A stretch of DNA of 38,393 nucleotides from an uncultured Clostridia bacterium (GTDB lineage Bacteria; Bacillota; Clostridia; Oscillospirales; Oscillospiraceae). The translations under genes were made by a program, and so were the position numbers. The stretch spans positions 1 to 38,393 of the forward strand of contig CAMGRL010000016.1 in assembly GCA_946061515.1 (NCBI GenBank), given 5' to 3'. Below, one piece after another: positions 3,726 through 34,610 of the stretch. The notes under the pieces were generated by a model, which saw only the letters and a program-made list of their open reading frames with translations, ran no database searches and had not been told where the DNA came from. Every line of letters begins with the position of its first letter. Within the stretch, counting starts at the first letter, position 1.

Positions 3726-3870
3726 TTATGTCATCCTGAGCGTTTGCGAAGGATCCCGTCCGATAACACTGGGAGTCCTGATCACAGGATTCTTCGTTAC
3801 TTCGTTCCTCAGAATGACAGCATGCTTTTGGCGCAACTGGTGGGCGATTCGTGAATCGCCCCTACGAATG
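3726..3870. repeat. Foldback repeat plus short hairpin repeat
   Basis: 3726-3818 is an imperfect foldback. It starts TCATCCTGAGCGTTTGCGAA with GGATCCCG following, and ends with GGATTCTTCG...CTCAGAATGACA, the reverse complement of its start. Next comes a short palindromic module (3840-3866) of the form GGGCGATTCGTGAATCGCCC followed by CTACG. Both types recur elsewhere in the window (4057-4152, 20458-20549, 22239-22331; 22503-22535). Confidence 0.85.
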
Positions 3871-3890
3871 GGTTCTGGGGACGGTTGTAT

Positions 3891-4152
3891 GGGCGCTTTA
3901 CGATGCGCCCGCAAAAGGCTCCCCTTGTCAGGGGAGCTGTCACGCATAGCGTGACTGAGGGGTAGTCAAAGGCAGCGATGAAGCAAACCCTTCCGCCTCA
4001 CTGCGTTCGGCACCTCCCCTGTCAGGGGAGGCTTGAACAGCGCGCAGCTAACCAGCGGTCATCCTGAGCGTTTGCGAAGGATCCCGTCCGGTGACGCTGG
4101 GTACTTCTATCCACGGGATTCTTCGCCGCTTCGCAGCTCAGAATGACAGCTT
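3891..4152. repeat. Diverged copy of the 207-bp unit followed by a foldback repeat
   Basis: 3891-4035 carries the hairpin-bounded module of the 207-bp tandem unit: a CTCCCCTTGTCAGGGGAG end, then ACGCATAGCGTGACTGAGGG, then a CTCCCCTGTCAGGGGAGG end. 4057-4152 is the TCATCCTGAGC...CAGAATGACA foldback. A further perfect 13-bp stem with a 5-nt loop lies at 4197-4227. This 450-bp gap holds no gene that I can support. Confidence 0.85.
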
Positions 4153-4332
4153 TAGAATGACAGCTTTATTATGCGCGCTTCGGAGCGAACCCCCTTCGCC
4201 GTCAAAGGCTTCCAGCCTTTGACGGCGAGAGTATTTTACCACATTTCCACATGCTTTCTCAACAGCTTTGGCACAAAAGAGGTGGAGTTTGGGCGAAATC
4301 TGTGGTATGCTATGCTTGAGGTGTTATTGGGA

Positions 4333-5490
4333 ATGAACGAGATCGAAAAAAACGGCTGTCCTCAGCGCCGCGCCTGCGGCGGCTGCCAGCTCCAGAACAT
4401 GAGCTATGCCGAACAGCTTTTGTATAAGCAGAAAAAAGAGGTCTCCCTGCTGGGCCGCTTCGGACATGTGGAAGAGATCATGGGCATGGACCATCCCCTG
4501 CATTACCGGAACAAGGTCCACGCCGCCTTCGGCCTGGACAGGAACCGGCGGGTGGTCTCCGGCATCTACCAGCCGGGCAGCCACGCCATCGTGCCGGTGG
4601 ACGCGTGCATGATCGAGGATGAGCTGGCGGACAAAATCATCGTCAGCATACGAAAGCTGCTGCCTGCGTTTAAAATACAGGTCTATGACGAGCGCAGCGG
4701 CAGCGGCTGGCTGCGGCATGTGCTGGTGCGCCGGGGCTTTGCCACAGGCCAGGTCATGGTGGTGCTGGTGGCGGTCTCCCCCATTTTTAAGCTGCAAAAA
4801 CCCTTTCTGGCAAAGCTTTTAACGCTTCACCCGGAGATCAGCACCGTGGTGCTGAACATCAACGACCGCTTCGGCCCGGTGGTGCTGGGCCGGCGGGACA
4901 AGGTGATCTATGGCCCGGGGTATATTGAGGATGTCCTCTGCGGCAAGCGCTACCGCATCTCACCCAGCTCCTTTTACCAGATCAACCCGGCGCAGACGGA
5001 AAAGCTCTATTCCGCGGCGGTGGAATTTGCGGGTCTGACGGGAAAGGAGACGGTGCTGGACGCCTACTGCGGCATCGGCACCATCGGCCTGACGGCAAGC
5101 GACCGGGCAAAGCAGGTCATCGGCGTGGAGTTAAACGGCGACGCGGTGAAGGACGCCATTGTCAACGCCCGGCTCAACGGGGTGAAAAACTGCTGGTTTA
5201 CCCAGGGGGACGCGGGTAAATACATGGAGCAAATGGTCTCTGACGGCCACCGGCCCGACGTGGTGTTCATGGACCCACCCCGCTCCGGCAGCGACGAGCG
5301 CTTCATCGGCTCTCTGCTGAAAGCAGCGCCCAAGCGCATTGTCTACGTCTCCTGCAATCCGGAGACCCTTGCCCGGGACCTGGACATGATCTGCCAGGGC
5401 GGCTACCGTGTACAGCGCATCCAGCCGGTGGATATGTTCCCTTATACCAACCATGTGGAGACGGTATGTCTTCTGTCACGAAACAAGTAA
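4333..5490 (+). CDS. 23S rRNA (uracil-5-)-methyltransferase, RumA/RlmD/RlmCD type
   Basis: A 385-residue SAM-dependent enzyme that makes 5-methyluridine in 23S rRNA. The N-terminal [4Fe-4S] ligands are C9, C15 and C18 (C-x5-C-x2-C) and C92. The SAM site is DAYCGIGTIGL, then MDPPRSG, and the catalytic cysteine is C341 in YVSCNPETLARD. It lacks the N-terminal TRAM domain of longer homologues. The frame is open back to 4171, but that extension covers repeat DNA. ATG 4333 is preceded by GAGGTG, and the protein begins with the cluster motif as expected. A weak extended -10 (TGGTATGCT, about 4307-4315) lies just upstream. The last codons (NHVETVCLLSRNK) are the site where an island appears to be integrated; degenerate copies of this tail lie at 8661-8794 and 9527-9691. 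Confidence 0.93.
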   Translation: MNEIEKNGCPQRRACGGCQLQNMSYAEQLLYKQKKEVSLLGRFGHVEEIMGMDHPLHYRNKVHAAFGLDRNRRVVSGIYQPGSHAIVPVDACMIEDELADKIIVSIRKLLPAFKIQVYDERSGSGWLRHVLVRRGFATGQVMVVLVAVSPIFKLQKPFLAKLLTLHPEISTVVLNINDRFGPVVLGRRDKVIYGPGYIEDVLCGKRYRISPSSFYQINPAQTEKLYSAAVEFAGLTGKETVLDAYCGIGTIGLTASDRAKQVIGVELNGDAVKDAIVNARLNGVKNCWFTQGDAGKYMEQMVSDGHRPDVVFMDPPRSGSDERFIGSLLKAAPKRIVYVSCNPETLARDLDMICQGGYRVQRIQPVDMFPYTNHVETVCLLSRNK

Positions 5491-5511
5491 AAAAGTACAG
5501 AAATAGGCTTA

Positions 5512-5570
5512 AAATAAGGGATTCCGAGAGATTTGCCGCATTTGGCAGTCTCTTGGAATCCCTTTTTTCG
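5512..5570 (+). terminator. Terminator downstream of the methyltransferase gene
   Basis: AAGGGATTCC...GGAATCCC forms a long stem, extended by AGAGA...TCTCT and an inner GCC/GGC pair, and is followed by TTTTTT. It is an intrinsic terminator about 25 bp after the stop. Confidence 0.85.
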
Positions 5571-5648
5571 TGTTTTGACAATAGCGTCATAGTCTGCCAT
5601 TTGACAGGTTGAGACAAGAAACTGCTTTTTTGCCTGTTGAGGCAATAG

Positions 5649-5801
5649 GACTATAGTGCATTGTTAGAACCGGGAATTCGACCTAAAGCACAGCCAGGCA
5701 TCGAATCAGTAACAAAACAATACCTTTATCAATTAGCGTATCAGAAATTCATTCATGATCACAATTTTACATATATCTCTTTGCAAGATCAATCTAATTA
5801 G
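5649..5801 (+). pseudogene. Fragment resembling a McrC/LlaJI-type restriction protein
   Basis: The frame with codons starting at 5649 contains PGIESVTKQYLYQLAYQKFI and then HDHNFTYIS, stopping at TAG 5799-5801. From memory, a proline-glycine followed by D/E-V-x-KQYLYQLAY-x-FI is characteristic of the nuclease region of McrC/LlaJI-like 5-methylcytosine restriction subunits. Only about 50 codons remain, with no start or flanking domain, so it is a relic. The composition is AT-rich, like the rest of the island. Homology is judged by eye only. Confidence 0.4.
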
Positions 5802-5882
5802 TATGAAATTTCCATATGTGATTTCTTAAATGAAATATAAAATAGCTGCTTGTAAAAATAGATTCAATGAGCATGGTACGGT

Positions 5883-6230
5883 AACAATGATTATGTTGTC
5901 AACTGGAGCAAATCCCATGAATTTTTCTTTGATGTAAAAGGATCTTGCGCTTTCCCGGATGATAAAACATATTATCCGCTAATTGCATTACTGAAGCTCC
6001 GTACCCTTTATGGCGAAAAGCATAGCCGATTTCAGGAACTGGAGGTACTCATCCAGGAGAAGAATGACACGAGGGAAATTCTCACAAACTTCATCACCAA
6101 GCTACAGGATTTGACCGGAGAACAGACAGAGTTCCGGGAAGAACTGTGGGGCGGTTTGGTGGATCACATCCGCATCGATGAGAAAAGTAGCACGGTAGTC
6201 TTCCGAGGTAGCATTGAGATTACTATTTAA
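5883..6230 (+). pseudogene. C-terminal remnant of a serine recombinase, joined to an unrecognised fragment
   Basis: The frame ending at TAA 6228-6230 reads QELEVLIQEKNDTREILTNF, then FREELWGGLVDHIRI and VVFRGSIEITI. This matches the coiled-coil plus C-terminal tail of large serine recombinases, where F-x-E-x-LW-x-x-LVD...F-x-DG-x-EI is usual. The preceding 40 codons (NWSKSHEFFFDVKGSCAFPD and on) do not look like recombinase and are not recognised. No catalytic resolvase domain is present. It is plausibly what is left of the enzyme that inserted an element at the rumA end. Confidence 0.55.
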
Positions 6231-6321
6231 TATGTAGAAACACGATTCGAAAGGGGTATCTGGTTTGTTGAAAGACCAGGTGCCTTTTTCTTTGTATGCG
6301 AACGGAGTCCGGCTATTTAAA

Positions 6322-6350
6322 TTGACTTTTGCGCCATCTATCGTTATAAT
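6322..6350 (+). promoter_or_regulatory. Promoter of the GTPase/zinc-ribbon operon
   Basis: TTGACT (6322-6327), a 17-bp spacer and a perfect TATAAT (6345-6350) lie about 90 bp before the GTPase start. It is a strong SigA-type promoter inside the island. Confidence 0.8.
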
Positions 6351-6443
6351 TGTATTTGGATAAGTATGTCTATCTGTATGTAAGTATGGATTCGCATAAT
6401 TTACAAGTCCTGTTATGTATAAAGAAAAGAAAGGACTTTTGCC

Positions 6444-7790
6444 ATGAAAGATGAAAAAATGAAAATCGAACAGCGAATGCAGAATATGAAAAAATTTTAC
6501 ATCAAGGCTGGAAACCTTATCGACAATTTGCCAGATGCAATTCCTGACAAAGCCAGGGAATCCCTTAAAGATGCAATCTTAGGCGATGCAGAATTAAAGA
6601 AATTGATGGAAGGCATAGATTCCCACAGACCGCCGAGAATTTTTCTGATCGGTCGTACTGGCGTTGGAAAAAGCAGTTTGATAAATGCACTATGCGGTTC
6701 TTATGTAGCAAGTGTAAGTGATACCAGAAGTTGTACTGAAGGTGCTGAAATCTATCAGTGCAAAGACGGCGATAGAGTTCTGATGGAAATCTGCGATACC
6801 AGAGGAATAGCAGAGTCTGAGAGCCTGAACAGCGAAGTATCAGCTGAGGATATACTCATCGACCAGATCAATGAATTCTCTCCGGATGTTGCAATACTGA
6901 TGCTGAATTGTACCCACAGAGACGATGTCGATACGGATGTCAACTTCCTCAAGAAGTTAGCAAAGTCTTATGCAGCAGTCAACAGTATGAGACTGCCGAT
7001 TGTCGTTGTTGTAAATAAGTGCGATGAGATGGCTCCCACACGATTTAAGAGTCCAAAAGAATATCCTCAGAACAAGATTTCAAAAATTAACGAGGTCGTT
7101 CAATACTATAAGGGCATCATTGTTCGTAATGGTCTGAAGATAGATAATATTATTGCTGTTTCTTCTCTGATTGATTGGATGACCCCGGACGGAATGGAAA
7201 TCGATGTCGAGAGTATTGATAACCTTCCAACATACGATATTGAAAACTTGCAGATTGCTTTTGACGGTAGATATCAGATTGAGGAATTACTTGATATATT
7301 GGAATCAGCCATTCAAGACTTTGAGGCACAGATGGGTTTGAGAATGGCTGCAAGATTGACCGAAGTGGTGCATAGACTTGCAAGACATCTGAACCGTATT
7401 TTCTCTGGGATAGCCGCAACCGTTGCATTAACGCCTATTCCGGTATCCGATATTTATGTGTTACTCATTTTGCAGTGTGTGCTGGTTAGTCTGATCGCTT
7501 CGTTGAGCGGTAGAGACATTTCGCTGGAAACCGCAAGAGAGTTTATCTTCAGCATGGGAGGCATTGCAGGTGCCGGATATGTGTTTAAACTGATTGCTCA
7601 GCAGGGGGCTAAATTCTTGAATGCTGTTTGGCCCGGTGCTGGTTCTGCGGTTAGCTCTGGTGTGGCAGCAGTTGGAACAAGTGCGATCGGCAAGGCTGCG
7701 ATTGCCTATTACATTGAAGAAACATCGATAAAGGAAGCAAAGGCACAATTTGACAAAGCAAAAAACGAAGGAAGTGTTACGGAAGAGTAA
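6444..7790 (+). CDS. Era-like P-loop GTPase with C-terminal membrane domain (DUF697-like)
   Basis: A 448-residue GTPase. G1 is GRTGVGKS at 70-77, a switch-region threonine lies in RSCTEG, G3 is DTRG at 118-121, G4 is NKCD at 191-194, and G5 is probably the SS at 240-241. A helical N-terminal extension of about 65 residues precedes the G domain. The C-terminal 130 residues hold hydrophobic helices (about 320-360 and 370-430) resembling the DUF697/YcjF-type membrane region. AAAGGAC precedes the ATG. It is followed 13 bp later by a zinc-ribbon membrane protein, so the two are probably co-transcribed from 6322-6350. It is AT-rich relative to the chromosome and is cargo of the island. The function is not established; membrane stress or phage defence is conceivable. 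Confidence 0.8.
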   Translation: MKDEKMKIEQRMQNMKKFYIKAGNLIDNLPDAIPDKARESLKDAILGDAELKKLMEGIDSHRPPRIFLIGRTGVGKSSLINALCGSYVASVSDTRSCTEGAEIYQCKDGDRVLMEICDTRGIAESESLNSEVSAEDILIDQINEFSPDVAILMLNCTHRDDVDTDVNFLKKLAKSYAAVNSMRLPIVVVVNKCDEMAPTRFKSPKEYPQNKISKINEVVQYYKGIIVRNGLKIDNIIAVSSLIDWMTPDGMEIDVESIDNLPTYDIENLQIAFDGRYQIEELLDILESAIQDFEAQMGLRMAARLTEVVHRLARHLNRIFSGIAATVALTPIPVSDIYVLLILQCVLVSLIASLSGRDISLETAREFIFSMGGIAGAGYVFKLIAQQGAKFLNAVWPGAGSAVSSGVAAVGTSAIGKAAIAYYIEETSIKEAKAQFDKAKNEGSVTEE

Positions 7791-7803
7791 CTGAGGTATA
7801 GAT

Positions 7804-8499
7804 ATGGGAATTCAATTTGTATCAGTAAAATGCCCAGAATGTGGTGCGGCACTCAACATTGAAGAGGGGCGTGAGCAGATTTTCTGTTCTTATTGTGGCA
7901 CGAAAATAATGGTTCATAATGATAACGAGCATATTTATCGTCACATTGATGAGGCAGGAATAAAACAGGCTGAGACCGAGCGCATTGTTAAAATGAAGCA
8001 GATGGAACTCGCCGAGAAGAAGAGACTTGCGTCAGAAAAAATGACAAAGACAAAAATCAAGATTTCTTTGATACTTGCAGTTGTAGGTATCCTTATGATG
8101 AGCCTTGGATATCTTGCAGGATCGGCAACTGGTGACTCGGACTCAGGATTCTATATGATATCTATGATTGGTTTCTTCCCACTCATGGGTGCTGCGTACA
8201 TATGGCTCTTTTCCAAGGATAAAGAGGATGAAGACGATTTTGAGGATAAAGCAAAAGTACCGTCATCCATTTCTGATTACCAGAGCAAGAACTATTCTGC
8301 AATTGAAGCCATGCTATCGAGTGCGGGTTTCACTAACATAAAATGTGTTCCTCTGAATGATCTGTCGACTGGTTGGATAAAAAAACCTGATACAGTTGAA
8401 TCAATTACAATTAACGGTCATGAAGTAACTTCTGGAGGCAGAAAGTTCCCAAGAGATTCTGCAGTAGTTATTTCGTACCACAGCTTTTCGAGGAGATAA
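7804..8499 (+). CDS. Zinc-ribbon membrane protein with PASTA-like C-terminus
   Basis: A 231-residue protein. An N-terminal zinc ribbon (CPECG at 10-14, CSYCG at 28-32) is followed by a charged helix of about 50 residues rich in K, E and M. Two transmembrane segments come next (about 88-107 and 118-136), then an acidic linker (DKEDEDDFEDK). The C-terminal domain begins IEAMLSSAGFTNIKCVPLND. It has the length and the helix-strand-'G-V-x-I-NG' pattern of PASTA-like modules, which bind ligands outside the cell or mediate protein contacts. It sits in an operon with the upstream GTPase and before a strong terminator. The function is unknown; a partner role for the GTPase is inferred from context. 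Confidence 0.75.
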   Translation: MGIQFVSVKCPECGAALNIEEGREQIFCSYCGTKIMVHNDNEHIYRHIDEAGIKQAETERIVKMKQMELAEKKRLASEKMTKTKIKISLILAVVGILMMSLGYLAGSATGDSDSGFYMISMIGFFPLMGAAYIWLFSKDKEDEDDFEDKAKVPSSISDYQSKNYSAIEAMLSSAGFTNIKCVPLNDLSTGWIKKPDTVESITINGHEVTSGGRKFPRDSAVVISYHSFSRR

Positions 8500-8505
8500 C
8501 GAACC

Positions 8506-8542
8506 AAAGCGGACAGTTGAATAATCAGTTGTCCGCTTTTTT
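8506..8542 (+). terminator. Terminator of the GTPase/zinc-ribbon operon
   Basis: AAAGCGGACA...TGTCCGCTTTTTT forms a clean stem-loop with a six-T tract, 7 bp after the stop codon. Confidence 0.9.
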
Positions 8543-8660
8543 GATGCAAAAAAGGGGGGTGCATTAGGGGGTGCAACCGTTTCATTGTATCAAAATGGTG
8601 GTTGCGATGAACCACTGCAAATGCGTCTGGCACGGTCGCCCCAGCGGTCACTGTATAGAC

Positions 8661-8794
8661 CTGATTTGTTCCCCCATTCACCGGCATATGATTTGTTCCC
8701 GTGTACTGTGGACATTCAAGCCATTGTCTCGTCCCACGTTGAGACAGTGGTATTGATGTCAAGAATACACAATACAAAAAGAGGATTGTTATGA
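8661..8794 (+). other. Degenerate rumA 3'-end remnants (att-like array 1)
   Basis: Two successive pieces contain GATTTGTTCCC (8668 and 8689 regions), which mimics the codons for the D-[LM]-F-P motif near the methyltransferase C-terminus. They are followed by CACGTTGAGACAGTGGTATTG (8735 on), which encodes HVETVVLMSR and ends at TGA 8794. The true gene has GTG GAT ATG TTC CCT...CAT GTG GAG ACG GTA at 5429-5468. The array therefore looks like stacked, decayed copies of the gene's tail left by integration events. Its stop overlaps the start of the next gene (ATGA). Confidence 0.55.
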
Positions 8795-9453
8795 GATTTG
8801 TATCTATAATGGGGGATTCAATCAGCACTTATTCAGGTTTTAATCCACAGGGATACAGTGTGTTTTATGATGATTACAATTCATCCAGAAATGGCATATC
8901 GAGCGTTTACGATACATGGTGGGCAAAGGTAAATCAGTTCTTGCATGCTTACCTTTGTGTAAATAACTCATTTTCAGGCAGTAAAGTGACCGGTGAGAAT
9001 TTTCCAAGTGCAAATTGTGAAGAACGTATATCCCTTCTACATACTGACCTATACAGACCAGATTTGATCCTTATCTATATCGGTTTCAATGATTTTGGGA
9101 ACGGTATTAAGATTACTTCAGATCAGTCTGATGGTGCTTCTTTTTTTGAATCTTATTGCAATATGCTAAGAAAAATTAAGAAGCATTATCCCCAAAGCAG
9201 AATCATCTGCGGTACGCTGATGGAAGGGTTTATTAGAGATAATGATAACTGGGTATTTCCACATAAATGGGCGGGAATATCAATATACGAGTATAATGCC
9301 GCTATAAAAATTGCTGCAAAACTGTCTGGAGTTGAGTTGGCAGATTTAGCATCATTAAATATGCATTATGAAACATTGGATGGAACGCATCCAACAAAAA
9401 AGGGACACAATACAATAGCACAAGCGTGGATTCGCTGTTTGAAGGAATTATAA
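8791..9453 (+). CDS. SGNH/GDSL-type hydrolase
   Basis: A 220-residue hydrolase of the SGNH superfamily (esterase/lipase or carbohydrate-ester deacetylase). Block I is MGDSIS with the nucleophile Ser10, the oxyanion Gly is in NSFSGSKV, block III is YIGFNDFG, and the block V dyad is D197 and H200 in LDGTHPTKKGH. No signal peptide is present, so it should be cytoplasmic. The start ATG 8791 follows AAAGAGGA. It is AT-rich and flanked by rumA-tail remnants on both sides, which marks it as a separately acquired piece of cargo. The substrate cannot be predicted. Confidence 0.88.
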   Translation: MRFVSIMGDSISTYSGFNPQGYSVFYDDYNSSRNGISSVYDTWWAKVNQFLHAYLCVNNSFSGSKVTGENFPSANCEERISLLHTDLYRPDLILIYIGFNDFGNGIKITSDQSDGASFFESYCNMLRKIKKHYPQSRIICGTLMEGFIRDNDNWVFPHKWAGISIYEYNAAIKIAAKLSGVELADLASLNMHYETLDGTHPTKKGHNTIAQAWIRCLKEL

Positions 9454-9526
9454 AGTCGTTCATTTCTCTATGTCACCAGGGACGGTTCTTGTTGACACCC
9501 GAAGTTGTGCTTTCATAGCAGGAATT

Positions 9527-9691
9527 GGACAGACTTGCTTCCACGAACAGACACTTGTGATGGATATGTTCCCACGAAGCCACTTAATGGCGGTTTTGGG
9601 GTAGATCTCTTCCCACAGACGAACTGACATTTACGCTGTCTTCTCGACCCATATCGAAACCGTGGTTTTATTGGTAAAGGCCGGAAAATGA
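9527..9691 (+). other. Degenerate rumA 3'-end remnants (att-like array 2)
   Basis: At least three units resemble the tail of the methyltransferase gene. GATATGTTCCCACGAAGCCAC (9563 on) and GATCTCTTCCCACAGACGAAC (9604 on) mimic the D-M/L-F-P-x-T-N-H codons. The frame from 9650 encodes HIETVVLLVKAGK and stops at TGA 9691. A weaker unit (GACTTGCTTCCACGAACAG, about 9532) precedes them. This is the distal edge of the island, and the last unit may be the displaced original 3' end of the gene or of an older integrant. Confidence 0.55.
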
Positions 9692-9737
9692 GACCGGTTC
9701 GGCGTCTTTTGGCGGACTGCCGTCCGCGGGGGCCGGC

Positions 9738-9765
9738 TTTACAAAAAAGCAAAATCGTGTATACT
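9738..9765 (+). promoter_or_regulatory. Promoter of the NTPase-DUF364-sfsA operon
   Basis: TTTACA (9738-9743), a 16-bp spacer and TATACT (9760-9765) lie about 30 bp upstream of the NTPase ATG. Confidence 0.65.
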
Positions 9766-9795
9766 GGATTCATCTGAAAACAAGGGGAAATTGCC

Positions 9796-10383
9796 ATGAA
9801 AAAGCATTTGTTTCTGTGCGGCCCGGCGGGCTGCGGAAAATCCAGGCTTTTACGGGAAGAGCTGGGCGCCGCCCTGGCCATGGCCGGGGGCTATGTGACG
9901 GAGGCTGTGCGGGACGAAAGCGGAAAAATCTCGGGCGTAGACCTGCTTCCGGCGGCGGCCGCCGCCGGGATTGAGGGCTTCGAGGCCCTGCGCTTTCTGG
10001 ACATGACAACTGTCCCGCCCAAAAGGGACAACGAGGTCTTTCGCGGTCCCGCGGCGCAGCTTTTGCAGGAGGCCGAATACTACCCCTTCTCCGTCATTGA
10101 CGAGTTCGGCGGCTTTGAGATGGTCATTCCCCAGTACCGGCAGCAGCTTGCGGAATTTCTGTCATCAAGCCAGCCCTGCGTGGGCGTGCTGAAAACCCTG
10201 GAGGAGGCCCAAAAGGCCCATGAGCAGTTCGGCCTGGGCGAAAAATACACCATGCTCATCCAAAACCTCCACCAGGTTCTGGCCCAGGACAGCGACACGG
10301 TGCTGCTGAAAACCAGCGGCTACGGCGACGAAACCGCCCGCCGCATTCTCCGCCAGTGGATAAAGGAGTATGTCAATGGCTGA
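9796..10383 (+). CDS. THEP1-like nucleoside-triphosphatase
   Basis: A 195-residue P-loop NTPase. Walker A is GPAGCGKS at 9-16 and Walker B is FSVIDEFGGFE near 98-108, equivalent to the V-I-DE-[IF]-G-x-[FM]-E motif of the THEP1 family (PF03266). These small enzymes hydrolyse NTPs slowly, and their role is unsettled. The Shine-Dalgarno AAGGGGAAA precedes ATG 9796. Its end overlaps the next gene by 8 bp, so the two are translationally coupled. The association with a DUF364 protein suggests a joint role in metal or cofactor handling, but that is inference only. Confidence 0.82.
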   Translation: MKKHLFLCGPAGCGKSRLLREELGAALAMAGGYVTEAVRDESGKISGVDLLPAAAAAGIEGFEALRFLDMTTVPPKRDNEVFRGPAAQLLQEAEYYPFSVIDEFGGFEMVIPQYRQQLAEFLSSSQPCVGVLKTLEEAQKAHEQFGLGEKYTMLIQNLHQVLAQDSDTVLLKTSGYGDETARRILRQWIKEYVNG

Positions 10384-11110
10384 TTTTTTCTCCCTCTATG
10401 AGGGCATTATTGACGCCGTGCCCCGGGGGCCCCGGGTGACGGAGACCTGCCGGGGCGAGCGCTGGTCCATGGCTTTCAGCGAACAAAACGCCGCCGTGGG
10501 CATGTTCACCCCGGGCAGCAGCATCCCTCCCCTGTTCCCGCAGGGCTTGAACGGCCTGGAGGTCCGCCGGGCGGCGGAGGGCATCAAAAGCTGGAACTTT
10601 GAGGAGGCCAGCATGGCCCTGGCCGCCGTCAATTCAGCGCTGAACACGGAGGAACGGGTAAATGCCCTCCACGCGGAGGACAGCATGGACCGCTACTACA
10701 CCCACGGGCTGGATTTCAAGGGCAAGACCGTGGGTCTGATTGGCCATTTAAACGGCCCGCCGGAGATGCGCCGGGACGCCAAAACAATTTACACCCTGGA
10801 AAAAGCGCCCCAGGAGGGGGACTATCCGGACTCCGCCTGTGATCTGCTCCTCCCCCGCTGTGATATTGTGATCATCACCGGCAGCACCCTCATCAACAAG
10901 ACTCTGCCCCATCTTCTGGACCTGTGCCGGGGAGCTTATACCATCCTCACCGGCCCCTCTGTTCCCCTGTGCCCGGCGCTGCTGGAGCAGGGCCTTGACC
11001 GGATCGCCGGGATGGTGGTGACGGACCGCGAGGGCATGAAAAACAGCGTCCTGACCGGCCAGCGGGGCAGCCCCTACCGCTACGGAAAACCTTTTTTGCT
11101 GGTGAAGTGA
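10376..11110 (+). CDS. DUF364/DUF4213-type putative heavy-metal-chelation protein
   Basis: A 244-residue protein. The N-terminal third (enolase-N-like DUF4213, with the SEQNAAVGMFTPG segment) and the C-terminal Rossmann-like DUF364 domain match the family described structurally as a putative metal-chelating protein. The latter contains KTVGLIGHLNG, then CDIVIITGSTLINKTLPHLL and TILTGPSVPLCP. Of the ATGs at 10370 and 10376, the second is preferred because AAGGAG lies 7 nt before it but only 1 nt before the first. It overlaps the NTPase gene and directly abuts sfsA (TGA then ATG). Relatives often sit beside iron/siderophore ABC transporters; none is here. Confidence 0.8.
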   Translation: MADFFSLYEGIIDAVPRGPRVTETCRGERWSMAFSEQNAAVGMFTPGSSIPPLFPQGLNGLEVRRAAEGIKSWNFEEASMALAAVNSALNTEERVNALHAEDSMDRYYTHGLDFKGKTVGLIGHLNGPPEMRRDAKTIYTLEKAPQEGDYPDSACDLLLPRCDIVIITGSTLINKTLPHLLDLCRGAYTILTGPSVPLCPALLEQGLDRIAGMVVTDREGMKNSVLTGQRGSPYRYGKPFLLVK

Positions 11111-11791
11111 ATGACATACGACAACATCCATGAGGCGGTCTTTCTTGACCGCCCCAACCGCTTTATCGCCCATATTCTGCTTAACGGGCAGACGCAGGTC
11201 TGCCATGTGAAAAACACCGGGCGCTGCAAAGAGCTGCTCTTGCCTGGGGCGGAAATATTTGTGCAGCACTCCGCAAACCCGGCGCGAAAAACCGCCTATG
11301 ACCTGATCGCCGTCCGCAAGGGCGAACGGCTCATCAACATGGACGCCGTCGCGCCCAATAAGGTCTTCGGTGAGTGGCTCAGCGCCGGCGGACCGGGCTA
11401 TGTGCCGGAGCTGATCCGGCCGGAGCGGGTCCACGGGGACTCCCGCTTCGACTTCTATTTTGAGCTTGGCGGCAGAAAGGCCTTTGCGGAGGTAAAGGGC
11501 GTGACCCTGGAGGACAACGGCGTGGTCCGCTTTCCCGACGCGCCCACGGAGCGGGGCGTAAAGCACCTGCACGGGCTGATCCGCTGCGTGCAGGAGGGCT
11601 TTGAGGCTTACGCTGTGTTCATTATCCAGATGAAGGGCGTGAAATACTTCGAGCCCAACCGGGCCACCCACCCGGAATTTGCCGAGGCCCTGTGTCAGGC
11701 CGCTCAGGCGGGCGTAAAGCTCATCGCCCTGGACTGCGACGTGGAGAAAGACAGCCTGCGCGCCGGGGACCTGGTGGAAATTCATCTGTAG
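11111..11791 (+). CDS. sfsA: SfsA family DNA/RNA nuclease-like protein
   Basis: 226 residues with the full set of SfsA motifs: HVKNTGRCKELL, SRFDFYFE, FAEVKGVTLE, FPDAPTERGVKHL and FIIQMKGVKYFEPN. The family was named for sugar-fermentation stimulation in E. coli; it has a PD-(D/E)xK nuclease-like core, with the D and E-x-K residues present here in SRFDF and AEVKG. Its start directly follows the stop of the DUF364 gene, making it the third gene of the operon. No clear terminator follows before the next promoter. Confidence 0.93.
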   Translation: MTYDNIHEAVFLDRPNRFIAHILLNGQTQVCHVKNTGRCKELLLPGAEIFVQHSANPARKTAYDLIAVRKGERLINMDAVAPNKVFGEWLSAGGPGYVPELIRPERVHGDSRFDFYFELGGRKAFAEVKGVTLEDNGVVRFPDAPTERGVKHLHGLIRCVQEGFEAYAVFIIQMKGVKYFEPNRATHPEFAEALCQAAQAGVKLIALDCDVEKDSLRAGDLVEIHL

Positions 11792-11840
11792 TACTATTTT
11801 GATAAAAACCAGACACTTTTTATGAAACTGTCGTATGACT

Positions 11841-11885
11841 TATCCCCCCAGGGGGCTTGTTTTCGGGTCTGAATTGCGGTATTAT
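11841..11885 (+). promoter_or_regulatory. Promoter and CsoR-type operator of the metal-sensor gene
   Basis: TTGTTT (11857-11862), 17 bp, then TATTAT (11880-11885) form the promoter. Abutting the -35 is TATCCCCCCAGGGGGCT (11841-11857), a C-tract/G-tract inverted repeat of the kind bound by CsoR/RcnR-family repressors. This suggests autoregulation by the gene product. Confidence 0.65.
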
Positions 11886-11919
11886 TTTAACATGATAAAC
11901 CGCTAAATTGGAGGCTGCC

Positions 11920-12276
11920 ATGCATATACCGGAAGAAGAGATATTGCTCCACGATCACGGCGACGGCGTGGTACACAGCCACAGCCACAGCCACGACCAC
12001 GGCGACGGACACAGCCATACCCACACCCAGACCAAGGCGGTGATCAACCGTCTCTCCCGGGCCATCGGCCATCTGGAGTCGGTCAAGCGCATGGTGGAGG
12101 ACGGGCGGGACTGCACGGAGGTGCTGGTCCAGCTTGCCGCCGTCCGCTCGGCGCTGAACAGCACGGCCAAGGTCATCCTCAAGGACCATCTGGAGCACTG
12201 CATCAACAGTGCCGGTGAGGGCGACCTGGATCAGCTCCAGGCCTTGAATGAGGCTATCGACAAATTCATGAGCTGA
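11920..12276 (+). CDS. CsoR/RcnR-family metal-sensing repressor with His-rich N-terminus
   Basis: 118 residues. Residues 40-118 are the all-helical DUF156 repressor fold (AVINRLSRAIGHLESVKRMVE and on). The metal-ligand positions are C65, H90 and C94, the Cys-His-Cys pattern of CsoR-type Cu(I) sensors rather than the formaldehyde or nickel patterns. The first 38 residues add ten histidines in HSHSHSHDHG-like runs, a metal-binding tail more typical of metal transporters and chaperones. ATG 11920 is chosen because TTGGAGG lies before it; a TTG four codons earlier is an alternative. A C/G-tract palindrome overlaps its own promoter. No transporter is in the same transcription unit, so its regulon must lie elsewhere or be only itself. 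Confidence 0.88.
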   Translation: MHIPEEEILLHDHGDGVVHSHSHSHDHGDGHSHTHTQTKAVINRLSRAIGHLESVKRMVEDGRDCTEVLVQLAAVRSALNSTAKVILKDHLEHCINSAGEGDLDQLQALNEAIDKFMS

Positions 12277-12322
12277 CAGTATCGTCAGTCAAAACACAGT
12301 CCGCCGCGGGATGTATAAATGA

Positions 12323-12372
12323 AGAGAGCGCAGAAAAAGGGCTTTTCGTCCTCTTTCCGCGCTCTCTTTTTG
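12323..12372 (+). terminator. Terminator of the metal-sensor gene
   Basis: GAGAGCGC...GCGCTCTC forms a long stem (extended by GAAAAAGG...CCTCTTTC), followed by TTTTT. It lies between two convergent genes and may also serve the ABC exporter on the minus strand, although the T tract there is weak. Confidence 0.8.
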
Positions 12373-12418
12373 CTATTCAATGCAGTATTTTGAAAGGCGG
12401 AGCTGTGCTCAACTCCGC

Positions 12419-14284
12419 TCAGTTCAGCTCGAACATGCCGGTATAGAGCTGGTAATACCTGCCCTTCTGCTCCAGTAGGGCCTGGTGGTCGCCCCGCTCG
12501 ATGATCCTGCCGTCCTCCAGCACCAAAATGGCGTCGGCATTGCGCACGGTGGACAGCCGGTGGGCGATGACAAACACAGTCCTGCCCCGCATCAGCGCGT
12601 CCATGCCCCGCTCGATGAGCATTTCCGTGCGGGTGTCCACAGAGCTGGTGGCCTCGTCCAGAATCAGCACCGGCGGGTCGGACACTGCCGCCCGGGCAAT
12701 GGCCAGCAGCTGCCGCTGTCCCTGGGACAGGTTCGTGCCCCCGGCGATCAGCTCCGTGTCATAGCCCTGGGACAGGTGGGAGATAAAATAGTGGGCGTTG
12801 GCGATCTTCGCCGCCTCAATGCACTCCTCATCCGTAGCGTCCAGACGGCCATAGCGGATATTCTCCATGACAGAGCCGGAAAACAGGTGGGTATCCTGCA
12901 AAACCATGCCCAGAGAGCGGCGCAGGTCCGCCTTTCGGATCTCCTTCACGTCGATGCCGTCATAGGTGATCCGGCCCTTTTCAATGTCGTAAAAGCGGTT
13001 AATCAGATTGGTGACGGTGGTCTTGCCCGCGCCGGTGGAGCCCACAAAGGCGATCTTCTGGCCCGGCTTTGCGTAGAGGGAGACCTCCTTCAACACCTCC
13101 CGCTCCCCGTCATAGGAGAAGCTGACCTTTTCAAAGCGCACCTCCCCTTTCAGGGGCACAATGCTGCCGTCGGGCCCTTTCCAGCCCCAGCTTCCGGTCC
13201 GCGCCGCGCACTCCCGGCCCTCGCTGTCCAGGTTGATGAGCACGGTTTTGCCCTCATCGGTCTCCGGCTGGGCGTCAATGACGGAAAAGACCCGCTCCGC
13301 CCCGGCCAGGGCCAGCATGATGAAGTTAAACTGGTCGGAGATCTGGGAGACCCGGTTGGCAAACTGGCGGATATACTGCAAAAAGGCGATGAGCACGCCG
13401 CCCACGCCCTCTCCGGTGAGCCAGAGCACACCCACCACGGTGGTGATGGCGTAAAAGATGTGGGACAGGTTATTCATCATGGGCCCCATGATGCTGCCCA
13501 GGGTGGCGGCGGTGACGGAGCGCTTTCTCAGCTCCTCGTTCAGGGGGACGAAGTTTTCCATGACCTGCTCTTCGTGGTTAAAGACCTTCACGTCCTTCTG
13601 GCCGCTGATCATCTCCTCCACATAGGCGTTCACGTCGGCCACGGCCTTCTGCCGGCCCTTGTAATTTTTCCGGGTCCGGGAGGTGACCAGGCGCACCAGC
13701 ACCGTCACCACCACGGCCATCAGCAGCATGATGAGAAACAGCCTGCCGGACAGGGCCAGCATCATGCCCACAATGCCCACCAGGGAGATGGTGGAAATCA
13801 GCAGCTGGGTGATGCCGCTTCGCACCAGGTCCCGGGCCGCGTCGGTGTCGTTGGTGTAGTAGCTCATCAGCTCCCCGTGGGGATGGGTGTCGAAATAGGC
13901 AATGGGCAGGTCCTGTATCTTCACGAACATGTCCCGGCGCAGGGCCTCCAGCATCACTGCCGAGCACTTCATCATCAGCAGGTTCAACAGGTAGTTTGTG
14001 ACCGCCGACAGCACATACAGCCCCGCCATGCCCACCAGAAGGGCGATGCAGCCGGCGTAGGCCTCATTCTGGGTGATACCGCTGACCTCCAGCAGGTTCA
14101 CAAAGGGCTTCATCAGATAGGAGGCGTAGACCGTGGCGCAGGAGTACACCAGCACCGACAGCAGCGCCGCGATGAACATGCTCCGGCAGTGCCGGAAATA
14201 GCCCATCAGCCGCCACAGGGTGCGCCAGGCGTTTTCCGGGCGCTTGTTGGCGTTGACCCGGTTCATCCGTTCTTCACCGCGCAT
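12419..14284 (-). CDS. ABC exporter half-transporter with intact NBD
   Basis: A 621-residue type I exporter subunit: six transmembrane helices (about 25-310), then a nucleotide-binding domain. Walker A is GSTGAGKT, the Q-loop is LQDTHLFSGS, the signature is LSQGQRQLL, Walker B is VLILDEATSS and the H-loop is IAHRLST. Its ATPase residues are all canonical, unlike those of the partner. The start is ATG 14284 (after AGGTGA), which overlaps the stop of the upstream gene by 11 bp; ATG 14266 is an alternative. The frame extends further upstream, but inside the neighbour. With the preceding gene it forms a heterodimer of BmrC/BmrD or TM287/TM288 type, usually multidrug or lipid exporters. The substrate is unknown. 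Confidence 0.92.
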   Translation of the reverse strand: MRGEERMNRVNANKRPENAWRTLWRLMGYFRHCRSMFIAALLSVLVYSCATVYASYLMKPFVNLLEVSGITQNEAYAGCIALLVGMAGLYVLSAVTNYLLNLLMMKCSAVMLEALRRDMFVKIQDLPIAYFDTHPHGELMSYYTNDTDAARDLVRSGITQLLISTISLVGIVGMMLALSGRLFLIMLLMAVVVTVLVRLVTSRTRKNYKGRQKAVADVNAYVEEMISGQKDVKVFNHEEQVMENFVPLNEELRKRSVTAATLGSIMGPMMNNLSHIFYAITTVVGVLWLTGEGVGGVLIAFLQYIRQFANRVSQISDQFNFIMLALAGAERVFSVIDAQPETDEGKTVLINLDSEGRECAARTGSWGWKGPDGSIVPLKGEVRFEKVSFSYDGEREVLKEVSLYAKPGQKIAFVGSTGAGKTTVTNLINRFYDIEKGRITYDGIDVKEIRKADLRRSLGMVLQDTHLFSGSVMENIRYGRLDATDEECIEAAKIANAHYFISHLSQGYDTELIAGGTNLSQGQRQLLAIARAAVSDPPVLILDEATSSVDTRTEMLIERGMDALMRGRTVFVIAHRLSTVRNADAILVLEDGRIIERGDHQALLEQKGRYYQLYTGMFELN

Positions 14285-20344: not shown

Positions 20345-20549
20345 AAGGCACCCGGGCGGCCACGCAGGGCCGCCCCTACGGCCTACCATCAGATTGCCGT
20401 TGAAGTTGTAGGGGCCGCCCTGTGTGGCGGCCCGCGAAAAGATTCCCAAAAACACCTGTCATTCTGATCCGCGCAGCGGCGAAGGATCCCGTAAAAAGAC
20501 GCTTCAGCGTAACCGGACGGGATCCTTCGCTCCGCTCAGGATGACAGCA
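20345..20549. repeat. Paired GGCCGCCC hairpin repeats and a foldback repeat
   Basis: 20354-20384 (GGGCGGCCACGCAGGGCCGCCC followed by CTAC) and 20408-20436 (GTAGGGGCCGCCCTGTGTGGCGGCCC) are the ends of one inverted unit. 20458-20549 is a foldback that starts TCATTCTGATCCGCG, has central GGATCCCG and CGGGATCC segments, and ends CGCTCAGGATGACAG. This is the same family as at 3726 and 22239. The gap between 20299 and 20630 otherwise holds only a terminator. Confidence 0.85.
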
Positions 20550-22230: not shown

Positions 22231-22238
22231 GCCGGTCT

Positions 22239-22331
22239 CCTGTCATTCTGAACCGCGAAGCGGTGAAGAATCCCGTGAAGAGAACGCCATGCGTTACCAT
22301 ACGGGCTCCTTCGCTTGCGCTCAGGATGACC
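22239..22331. repeat. Foldback intergenic repeat
   Basis: It starts TGTCATTCTGAACCGCGAAG and ends CGCTTGCGCTCAGGATGAC, with central GAATCCCG and CGGGCTCC segments. It is the same family as at 3726, 4057 and 20458. Confidence 0.8.
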
Positions 22332-33042: not shown

Positions 33043-34610
33043 AGTCTGTCGAGAAACCCGGCTGCGCATTAAGCGGCAGCCGGGTTTCTGGTGCAAATAA
33101 CGGGAAAAAGCCGGTAAAACGAGAGAAGAAAATGCTCCTTCCACTTCCAACTGGCCAGCTTTTTCAGATTCATGGCAGCAAACTTAAGCTTCACCCAGTT
33201 TGTCACCTGGGCCAAGCCTCTGTATTGTGTATAACGCATAGCGTGCTTTTCTTTGGCGTCCGCAAAGACGCGCTCAATGGTCTCTTTCCGCTGCTTGTAA
33301 AGATCCCGGTGCTTCGGTGTATAACGGGCGTCGTCCGCCAGGTCCTCGTAATCCTTCCAGACATGCCTCTGTACGGTCTTTACACAGTCCTTGGAATGAG
33401 TGCAAAGCTCTCTGGTGGGACAATTTGCGCAAATCCTTGGATCGCTCTTGTATTCCCTGTAACCGTCCCGGTTTGTGGTGGCATATTTGAGAATCTGGTA
33501 TTCCGGGCAAATCACACAGTCATAGAATTCATCATAGACATATTTCCACCACTCATGGCCACCCTTCATCGTCTGCGGGCGCTTGTAAGCCGTAGAGAGC
33601 ACTCTGCCGTCATCAAAAACCTTCTTGCAGATATGGGGCGTCTTGTAAGCGGAATCGGCAACAATGCTTTCCACATCGGGAAAGGCTTCTGTTACCTTGT
33701 CATATACCTCGTCAAAAGCTACGCTGTCATGGACATTTCCGGCTGTGACCACCGTTTCCAACACAAAGCCATGACTGTCACAGGCCGTATGAGCCTCATA
33801 CGCAAACTGCCGCTTATGGCTGCCCTTTACGAACAGACCGCAGTCCGGGTCAGTCACGCTTTTCGTGACCATACGAGTCTTGTCTTTCTTCCGGCGAGCC
33901 AGTTTCTTTCGGGAGGTGTTGTCCTTTCGCTTCTTTGGTGGCATTGGCGGCTCGTCATCGTCATCGAAAGGTTTCTTGCCATGAGCTTCCCGGTCCGCGT
34001 TGACCTCCGCCATCAGCTCTTGGGCATAATGTTTCGATGCTGCCGGTATCTCGGCCTTTACCTGTTTCTTTGTGTTGGCATTGGCTTTGATGTGGGTGCC
34101 GTCAATGAAGACCGCCTTGGGAGACAGGTATCCCGCTTCCGCCACTTCCTCCAGGATCCATGCAAAGACCTGGTCTACCGTTTCTGTCGTAAAGCGGTGA
34201 CGGAAATTATAACTCACCGTGGAAAAGTGCGGCGTTTCTTCTTGGAGCGTATAGCCCAGAAACCAGCGGTAGGCTACGTTCAGGTTGACTTCTTCCGCCG
34301 TCCGCCGCAGGGAAGGCAGCCCATACAGGTGCTGGATCAGTACCATCTTGAACAGCACCACCGGATCCACACTGGGCCGTCCGTTATCTTCACTGTACAG
34401 TGGCGCTACCATTTCATAAATGCGGTTAAAATCCACTGCCGCGTCTACTTTCCGTAGTAAATGTTCGGCGGGGACAAGGCTTTCTGTGTCTACGATTTCC
34501 ACTACGCCGCGATCCAGTTTACCACGTTCCAACATCTTTCATCACCCACTTTATTTTACCTCATATATGCAAAAAAGCCCAGCATAAACTGGACTTTTTC
34601 GACAGACTGA
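33041..34610 (-). mobile_element. IS1182-family insertion sequence, complete
   Basis: It is about 1,570 bp, bounded by imperfect inverted repeats TCAGTCTGTCGAGAAA (33041-33056) and, reversed, TCAGTCTGTCGAAAAA (34610-34595). One transposase gene fills it. The flanks (...TTTT and CCGG...) show no target duplication. It sits between two palindromes, the terminator at 33018-33042 and the CCGGCGCGGG...CCCGCGCCGG hairpin at 34611-34637. Confidence 0.88.
33069..34535 (-). CDS. IS1182-family DDE transposase
   Basis: 488 residues. The N-terminal DUF772 region (with GRPSVDPVVLFKMVLIQHLY and LPSLRRTAEEVNLNVAYRWF) is followed by the RNase-H-like catalytic domain. The first Asp is in VFIDGTHIKANANTKK and the second in VADSAYKT. 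The last acidic residue is in the RKETIERVFADAKEKHAMRY block. A charged insert (about 185-215, rich in K, D and P) and a cysteine cluster (CANCPTRELC) are typical of the family. It is intact, so the element may be active. Confidence 0.93.
   Translation of the reverse strand: MLERGKLDRGVVEIVDTESLVPAEHLLRKVDAAVDFNRIYEMVAPLYSEDNGRPSVDPVVLFKMVLIQHLYGLPSLRRTAEEVNLNVAYRWFLGYTLQEETPHFSTVSYNFRHRFTTETVDQVFAWILEEVAEAGYLSPKAVFIDGTHIKANANTKKQVKAEIPAASKHYAQELMAEVNADREAHGKKPFDDDDEPPMPPKKRKDNTSRKKLARRKKDKTRMVTKSVTDPDCGLFVKGSHKRQFAYEAHTACDSHGFVLETVVTAGNVHDSVAFDEVYDKVTEAFPDVESIVADSAYKTPHICKKVFDDGRVLSTAYKRPQTMKGGHEWWKYVYDEFYDCVICPEYQILKYATTNRDGYREYKSDPRICANCPTRELCTHSKDCVKTVQRHVWKDYEDLADDARYTPKHRDLYKQRKETIERVFADAKEKHAMRYTQYRGLAQVTNWVKLKFAAMNLKKLASWKWKEHFLLSFYRLFPVICTRNPAAA

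Follow-up and report, generated by a model that had tools for sequence, protein, structure and literature searches.

Integrons are the textbook system for the ordered capture of single genes; they are based on tyrosine recombinases, with IntI, attI and attC as their parts, and hold rows of small cassettes in one direction with the entry site at one end. Elements of the staphylococcal cassette chromosome (SCC) stack in tandem. The locus treated here lies behind a rumA-type 23S rRNA (uracil-5-)methyltransferase gene in DNA of an uncultured Clostridia bacterium of the Oscillospiraceae (assembly GCA_946061515.1, contig CAMGRL010000016.1, positions 1 to 38,393 of the forward strand; the whole stretch of 38,393 nucleotides is called the window); with a rough probability of 0.7 it is taken to be a short, partly decayed gene-cassette array that entered at the rumA 3' end, a rumA-targeting serine recombinase in trans being the likely agent.

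Statements referred to PMC4701971, PMC7563491 and PMC6222049 are based on portions of these papers. The same target is used by the rumA-targeting integrative and conjugative elements (ICEs) and integrative and mobilizable elements (IMEs), both streptococcal and of the type of CTn5 of Clostridioides difficile, in which C-termini swap; in the streptococcal ICEs studied by Ambroset and colleagues one att site is situated within the integrase gene, which swaps its 3' end with rumA (PMC4701971). This layout was found again in three relatives (L180, L228, L238); the known elements are large and autonomous, whereas the units described below are small, recombinase-less and in rows. Cis-mobilizable elements (CIMEs) and accretion at rpsI, rpmG, fda and tRNA-Lys offer att ends, no recombinase and a tandem arrangement at one gene, as here (classical CIMEs, 1.2–13 kb; gene-free microCIMEs, 130–220 bp); they are described as decayed ICEs or IMEs, and a uniform single-gene cassette with a conserved 3' site is not mentioned in the portion of the paper used (PMC7563491). 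SCCmec and the enterococcus cassette chromosome (CcrAB) are likewise connected with large serine recombinases, the 3' region of an rRNA methyltransferase gene and variable cargo; they differ in being islands that bring ccr genes of their own (32 kb in one case), in the target rlmH and in not being single-gene units (PMC6222049), the target in the window being rumA and its contig giving no PF07508 match. Stacking of att-flanked elements at one gene is therefore known; searches of the open-access literature (preprints and most subscription papers lie outside this coverage) gave reports on rumA ICEs, CIMEs, SCC-type islands and classical integrons, and no report of single-gene cassette rows at rumA was found, and there is a fair chance that the arrays described here are a new class.

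A tail profile of 10 residues was prepared from 91 rumA-type tails, a set in which copies of the window's own tail account for two entries and some relatives are represented twice. Run over the window in six frames, it gave exactly three matches with a score of at least 12 bits, at 5452 (33.5 bits), 8735 (33.9 bits) and 9650 (32.7 bits), and zero on the minus strand. The best tail score in 300 first-order Markov simulations of 5491–9720 was 13.6 bits. Decayed copies of the rumA tail downstream of the gene, proposed in an earlier note on this DNA, were borne out by these matches, and their coordinates had been given correctly within a few bases; the three regions do match one another in the tail profile. 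The copies are real, while the DxFP pieces that had been read together with them are not all in the frame of the following HVETV piece. The features of the locus are as follows.

4324–5490, plus strand: rumA-type 23S rRNA (uracil-5-)methyltransferase gene, intact, the host target (PF05958, E 1.7e-24).
5431–5490, plus strand: attachment site at the rumA 3' end; DxFP arm 5431–5441, tail from 5452 (33.5 bits).
5491–8734, plus strand: unit 1, 3.2 kb, composite and partly decayed, bounded by the tail matches at 5452 and 8735.
5512–5568, plus strand: terminator-like hairpin directly 3' of rumA; arms 5512–5531 and 5549–5568, 90% complementary, then a T run.
5937–6230, plus strand: open frame in unit 1, no Pfam match.
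6444–7790, plus strand: GTPase gene of unit 1 (MMR_HSR1 and DUF697).
7804–8499, plus strand: gene of unit 1, possible zinc ribbon (zinc-ribbon matches under the Pfam cut-offs).
8663–8734, plus strand: attachment arm 1; the motif GATTTGTTCCC occurs twice, at an interval of 27 bp, and is followed by ACATTCAAGCCATTGTCTCGTCC.
8735–8794, plus strand: tail copy 1, HVETVVLMSRIHNTKRGLL and stop, the 5' end of the next unit (33.9 bits).
8791–9453, plus strand: cassette gene, SGNH/GDSL hydrolase (PF13472, E 8.5e-15).
9532–9649, plus strand: attachment arm 2; DxFP motifs at 9532 (degenerate), 9563 and 9604 (both good), followed by ACATTTACGCTGTCTTCTCGACC.
9650–9691, plus strand: tail copy 2, HIETVVLLVKAGK and stop (32.7 bits).
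9721–11791, plus strand: right-hand chromosomal block with NTPase, DUF364 and SfsA, found elsewhere in the two nearest relatives.

The best reading of the window is a degenerate array of two units, namely a 3.2-kb GTPase unit and then an SGNH-hydrolase cassette. Unit 2 (8735–9649) is compact and is made up of the tail copy, the SGNH hydrolase gene and the second arm; the stop of tail copy 1 (8792–8794) overlaps the ATG of this gene (8791). In the nearest relative, G012 (same contig as locus L075), homology to rumA (88.5%) runs from 4213 to 5465 and ends inside the tail, and the rumA tail beyond about the E codon probably derives from inserted DNA. Tail copy 2 looks, by eye, like the native tail of that relative and is perhaps the displaced original rumA end of the lineage. 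Tails that form the unit boundaries, together with homology that stops inside a tail, support the suggestion that the rumA 3' end is a repeatedly used integration site. Homology of the right-hand block begins at 9721 or 9727; in each of the two near relatives, G075 and G012, this block occupies a different locus, which means either a rearrangement in the strain or a joining of two loci in the draft assembly. The segment of 4 kb was not seen at unrelated loci: the sole other copy of a large part of it that was met adjoins rumA, in a distant metagenome-assembled genome (MAG) in which a 72.9% identical GTPase gene stands directly behind rumA (L104).

The motif GAYHTSTTCCC, picked after the pieces had been seen and chance-tested in this strict form in the window only, occurs six times there against 0.24 expected (0 of 100 shuffles reached six); of the six, one is in the rumA tail (5431), two stand ahead of tail 1 (8663 and 8690) and two ahead of tail 2 (9563 and 9604). 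The distance from DxFP to the H codon of the tail is 45 and 46 bases in the window arms, with extra copies at 72 and 87, and 21 bases in rumA itself; in the distant clostridial MAG L055 DxFP stands at 45 with a looser copy 27 bases further up (72), like 8663/8690. The DxFP clusters noticed earlier are thus real; they need not be relics of lost rumA copies, since they keep fixed distances before the tails, and this fits an attachment-arm recognition motif better than random gene debris. The window pieces were dropped as copies of the rumA arm because of their spacing (45–46, not 21), and as a general marker downstream of rumA DxFP is weak (15 forward vs 9 reverse, loose pattern). Cassette-type arms with DxFP at 21 were found in L179, L183, L190 (at 768), L229 and L240, and at 20 in L235 and L053. 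The arms of the window resemble that of L055 and have, by eye, a motif in common with L008; they are a separate class with two or three DxFP copies each, and may be arms stacked by successive insertions, which comes near the idea of the earlier note.

Array structure was also seen in relatives. In the tail survey 102 rumA loci were collected and 11 were dropped for too little downstream DNA; a further tail (at least 18 bits, within 2.5 kb) was present on the coding strand in 14 of the remaining 91 and on the other strand in none. The 14 include L030, a re-read native gene, L029, where the match ends a recombinase-like fragment, and two cases with a match 50 bases or less from the gene end (L060 and the first match of L053); the window counts as negative, its tails lying beyond 2.5 kb. 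In L028/L128 tails follow at 543, 1177 and 1818, about 600 bp apart, with one short forward gene per unit. From six unit ends a common site was derived: its arm closes with TTTTATTCACGCTATTGTCCCAAGG and is followed by CAyGTGGAGAC, the rumA tail. The covariance model built from these six ends (site model R1) gave, in the genus, 29 matches in 19/102 genomes (E 0.01), 14 genomes reaching at least 45 bits; 7/29 matches are under 32 bits and four of the genomes had supplied seed sites. In the family 27 matches were obtained in 20/300 genomes and 14/106 genera (E 0.001), with at least 43 bits in 15 genomes of 13 genera and less than 38 bits in 6/27 matches. Many of these sites lie behind rumA or a second rumA-type gene, others without one in the fetched flank.

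Thirty-seven array loci (368,071 bp) were chosen for holding site R1, so counts on them are not prevalences; the set omits the weak genus loci L188, L189 and L193, and does not include G077 and G080 (genus) or G160 and G370 (family). Tail matches of at least 14 bits, native tails included, numbered 79 forward and 0 reverse. Units between successive tails (n = 41, one of which, in L230, includes rumA itself) had a median length of 713 bp, and 40 were shorter than 1.5 kb; a forward open reading frame (ORF) of at least 60 aa was present in 39, a few units hold two genes and two hold no ORF. The relatives accordingly show head-to-tail units of 0.5–1.5 kb, usually with one forward gene, each ending in an attachment arm with a rumA-tail copy behind it. 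Cassettes of a single gene, all oriented alike, are the rule there, and one of the two units in the window is of this kind. The Pfam scan of 31 genes (28 array genes chosen by eye from the 39, near-copies omitted, and three of the window) gave nine matches to PF00583 (GNAT); the others include chloramphenicol acetyltransferase (CAT), chloramphenicol phosphotransferase-like, HAD, CDP-alcohol transferase and immunity-like families.

Some further properties of these rows were observed. L053 (Caproiciproducens galactitolivorans BS-1): tails 45 and 173 bases past the gene end, 18.3 and 28.5 bits. L232: a long gene row (7613–14000) behind a rumA-type gene, with a CAT-family gene; a later gene is presumably a CatB/Vat-type acetyltransferase. 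L174, L176 and L236: the same first cassette (in L174 and L236 also the next ones) beside different genes; by eye, the left end has a sigma-70-like promoter, and arrays may occur at sites other than rumA. L174 (10089–10296), L176 (2838–3045) and L181 (5310–5517) share a sequence of 200–290 bp, located after the site matches of L174 and of L181 and some 1 kb past the site in L176; possibly it is a common right-hand flank. L175, L179 and L182: the last tail opens, by eye, into a near-perfect palindrome around GAGACAGTCG TT CGACTGTCTC; some other tails (KLIRQ type) also include palindromes.

One and the same GNAT cassette was found behind a large serine recombinase (LSR) gene (L180), behind rumA2 (L187) and behind another cassette (L190), the identities being 94.8% and about 89%; these copies align from the tail towards the right and not to its left, the homology beginning inside the tail. 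The earlier reading of the tails as scars of excision does not agree with this: the same cassette, tail included, sits behind different left neighbours, so that the tail makes up the downstream half of a junction and at the same time the beginning (5' end) of the following unit. Among 78 distinct junctions 22 could be sorted by their right-hand end (classes by hand-made patterns): right ends R1 and R3 each stand behind three clear left-arm classes and one unclassed arm, R4 behind two classes, R2 behind one and one unclassed arm, and R5 was seen once. The switch from left-linked to right-linked letters falls, by eye, near the E codon of HVETV, from which it follows that rumA receives its last residues from the first cassette. 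Phage or plasmid carriers of the cassettes were sought and rejected: the common arm had 0 exact matches in viral contigs, and the array stretch L232 7600–9800, compared with plasmids, matched only through its CAT gene, at 83.1% to one of Selenomonas.

Ordinary accretion, in which decayed ICE or IME leftovers (CIMEs) are stacked at the known rumA site with no dedicated cassette system, is unlikely as an account of these data, though it has real precedents: CIMEs and tandem accretion are established in streptococci (PMC7563491) and rumA is already known as a serine-integrase site (PMC4701971). In the window itself, unit 1 resembles a degraded larger element, possibly derived by deletion from an ICE or IME, the arms suit the common cassette site weakly, and the units are att-flanked without recombinase or transfer genes, as judged by the three main unit genes and the PF07508 scan. 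Decay predicts, however, neither the similar unit sizes of the relatives (median 713 bp, 40/41 below 1.5 kb) nor their mostly single forward gene; the 3' end common to 13 genera (at least 43 bits) and the occurrence of the same cassette behind different neighbours also speak against it, and the small cassettes give no sign of an origin by deletion.

Homologous recombination or transposition between repeated ends, shuffling genes behind rumA with no site-specific recombination, is improbable. The 3' ends of the cassettes are alike over 60 bp, and further by eye, which is enough for exchange, and some adjacent cassettes travel together (L174 and L236); the boundaries fall, however, at the same codons behind unlike left arms (LSR gene, rumA, cassette) that share few bases.

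The search for a recombinase gave the following. In L180, L228 and L238 an LSR gene stands directly ahead of the cassette row; Resolvase, Recombinase and zinc-ribbon domains were found (the frame of L238, as read, is without the N-terminal part), and these genes end in tail-like residues at the same boundary as the cassettes, so that recombinase and cassettes are joined at one point. As in rumA-specific serine-integrase elements, the junctions of the window lie inside the rumA 3' end; a large serine integrase gene holding attR is present in these three relatives and absent from the window. Three genes with a Recombinase domain (PF07508) occur in the window's genome on other contigs (G000:C13 and G000:C27; loci L132–L134). 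It is likely that rumA-targeting LSRs move the cassettes in trans, and the enzyme which does so may differ from the LSR of the elements in L180, L228 and L238. The frame 5937–6230 of unit 1, whose suspected resemblance to a serine-recombinase C-terminus was not confirmed, did not serve as evidence; as a recombinase remnant it was rejected (Pfam empty; weak partial matches in 5 other of the 102 genus genomes).

The integron integrase model TIGR02249 gave no match above cut-off in the 102 genus genomes, the search covering the genus and not the wider family; the matches below cut-off are of a kind also given by 13 of 14 control genomes. Aligned sites (45, of which 44 distinct) showed no covariation beyond shuffles, the score being reached by 184 of 500, and folding of five sites was uneven (z −2.60 to +0.60; the two of the window, −0.34 and −0.02); a folded attC-like site was therefore rejected. 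A true integron variant, with attC-like sites folded single-stranded and moved by a tyrosine integron integrase, is most improbable: small cassettes in one orientation, a terminal entry site, an imperfect dyad just ahead of the boundary and contents rich in GNATs, with CAT and immunity-like proteins, are integron-like, whereas the results just given, the entry within a housekeeping gene and the cassette boundary shared by serine recombinase genes are not.

For the serine-recombinase array at rumA the following course is proposed. In a circular unit the left arm would adjoin a rumA-tail copy. The unit would enter rumA by site-specific recombination where the tail begins, close to the V-E codons of HVETV; rumA would gain a new working C-terminus from the unit, and the old tail would be shifted downstream behind the left arm of the unit. 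Since each insertion would restore a rumA-like tail, the site could be used again and units would stack beside rumA, which is the presumed direction of growth. The cassette genes would come to lie just behind the tail, where expression by read-through from rumA is conceivable; the recombinase would probably be a rumA-targeting LSR of a resident ICE or IME, acting in trans. A wider proposal, for which we would put the chances somewhat short of even, is that of a serine-recombinase counterpart of integrons: mostly single-gene cassettes would circulate between gut genera of the Oscillospiraceae type and be captured by rumA-type genes at their 3' ends, in order and with a single orientation, the C-terminus being rebuilt at each capture; these genes would serve as the entry site and perhaps as the promoter.

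A number of results weigh against the array reading, mostly as regards the window. Site model R1 matched best in 5400–9800 at 8665–8752 with 11.8 bits (E 0.02; the next match, 9.1 bits, is elsewhere), so that arm 1 is matched weakly, and arm 2 was missed on the plus strand. No relative of the window GTPase was found in 300 family genomes, and the SGNH gene has relatives in four of the 300, distant ones (41–46%) with no tail alongside; with no close relative among these genomes, both were rejected as shared cassettes. Unit 1 includes about 950 bp without a clear gene and is longer than a typical cassette, the window contig holds no PF07508 match and no intact recombinase domain, and the DxFP spacing of 45–46 bases departs from the 21 of rumA. 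Among the relatives, the common left arm of the cassettes (TTATTCACGCTATTGTCCCAAGG) is unlike the left arm of the LSR elements (GTTTGGACAACGAT); no rumA-type gene was seen in the flanks fetched for the rows of L174, L176 and L236, and the genomes are for the most part draft MAGs or draft assemblies. A start within 25 bases of the tail was found for 27/71 tails vs 51/142 control frames (no enrichment), while an ATG overlapping the tail stop was mildly enriched (13/71 vs 10/142); translational coupling to rumA was rejected as a rule and kept as a possibility. Confidence in the array and in the wider proposal was reduced slightly on account of the deviating DxFP spacing and of the weakly supported coupling to rumA, and that in ordinary accretion was raised slightly. 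The window would belong to the cassette system on the showing of its tails, its arms and the compact SGNH unit, and not of a shared cassette.

If the proposal is true, gut Firmicutes would have a second, unrelated route of gene capture, by way of serine recombinases and a conserved rRNA-methyltransferase gene, and the view of how these bacteria acquire genes would change; the need of an array for a folded site could also be tested simply, and the variation of rumA-type genes at their very end would be accounted for. The arrays may be of importance for the exchange of genes among commensals, since their cassettes carry acetyltransferases, an immunity-like protein and a CAT-family gene.

Elsewhere in the window, dispersed repeats of about 100 bp were noted at 1–720, 3729–4149, 20448–20548 and 22238–22330, several of which match repeats in the relative G012; a transposase-like ORF of 488 aa (by eye) lies at 33069–34535.

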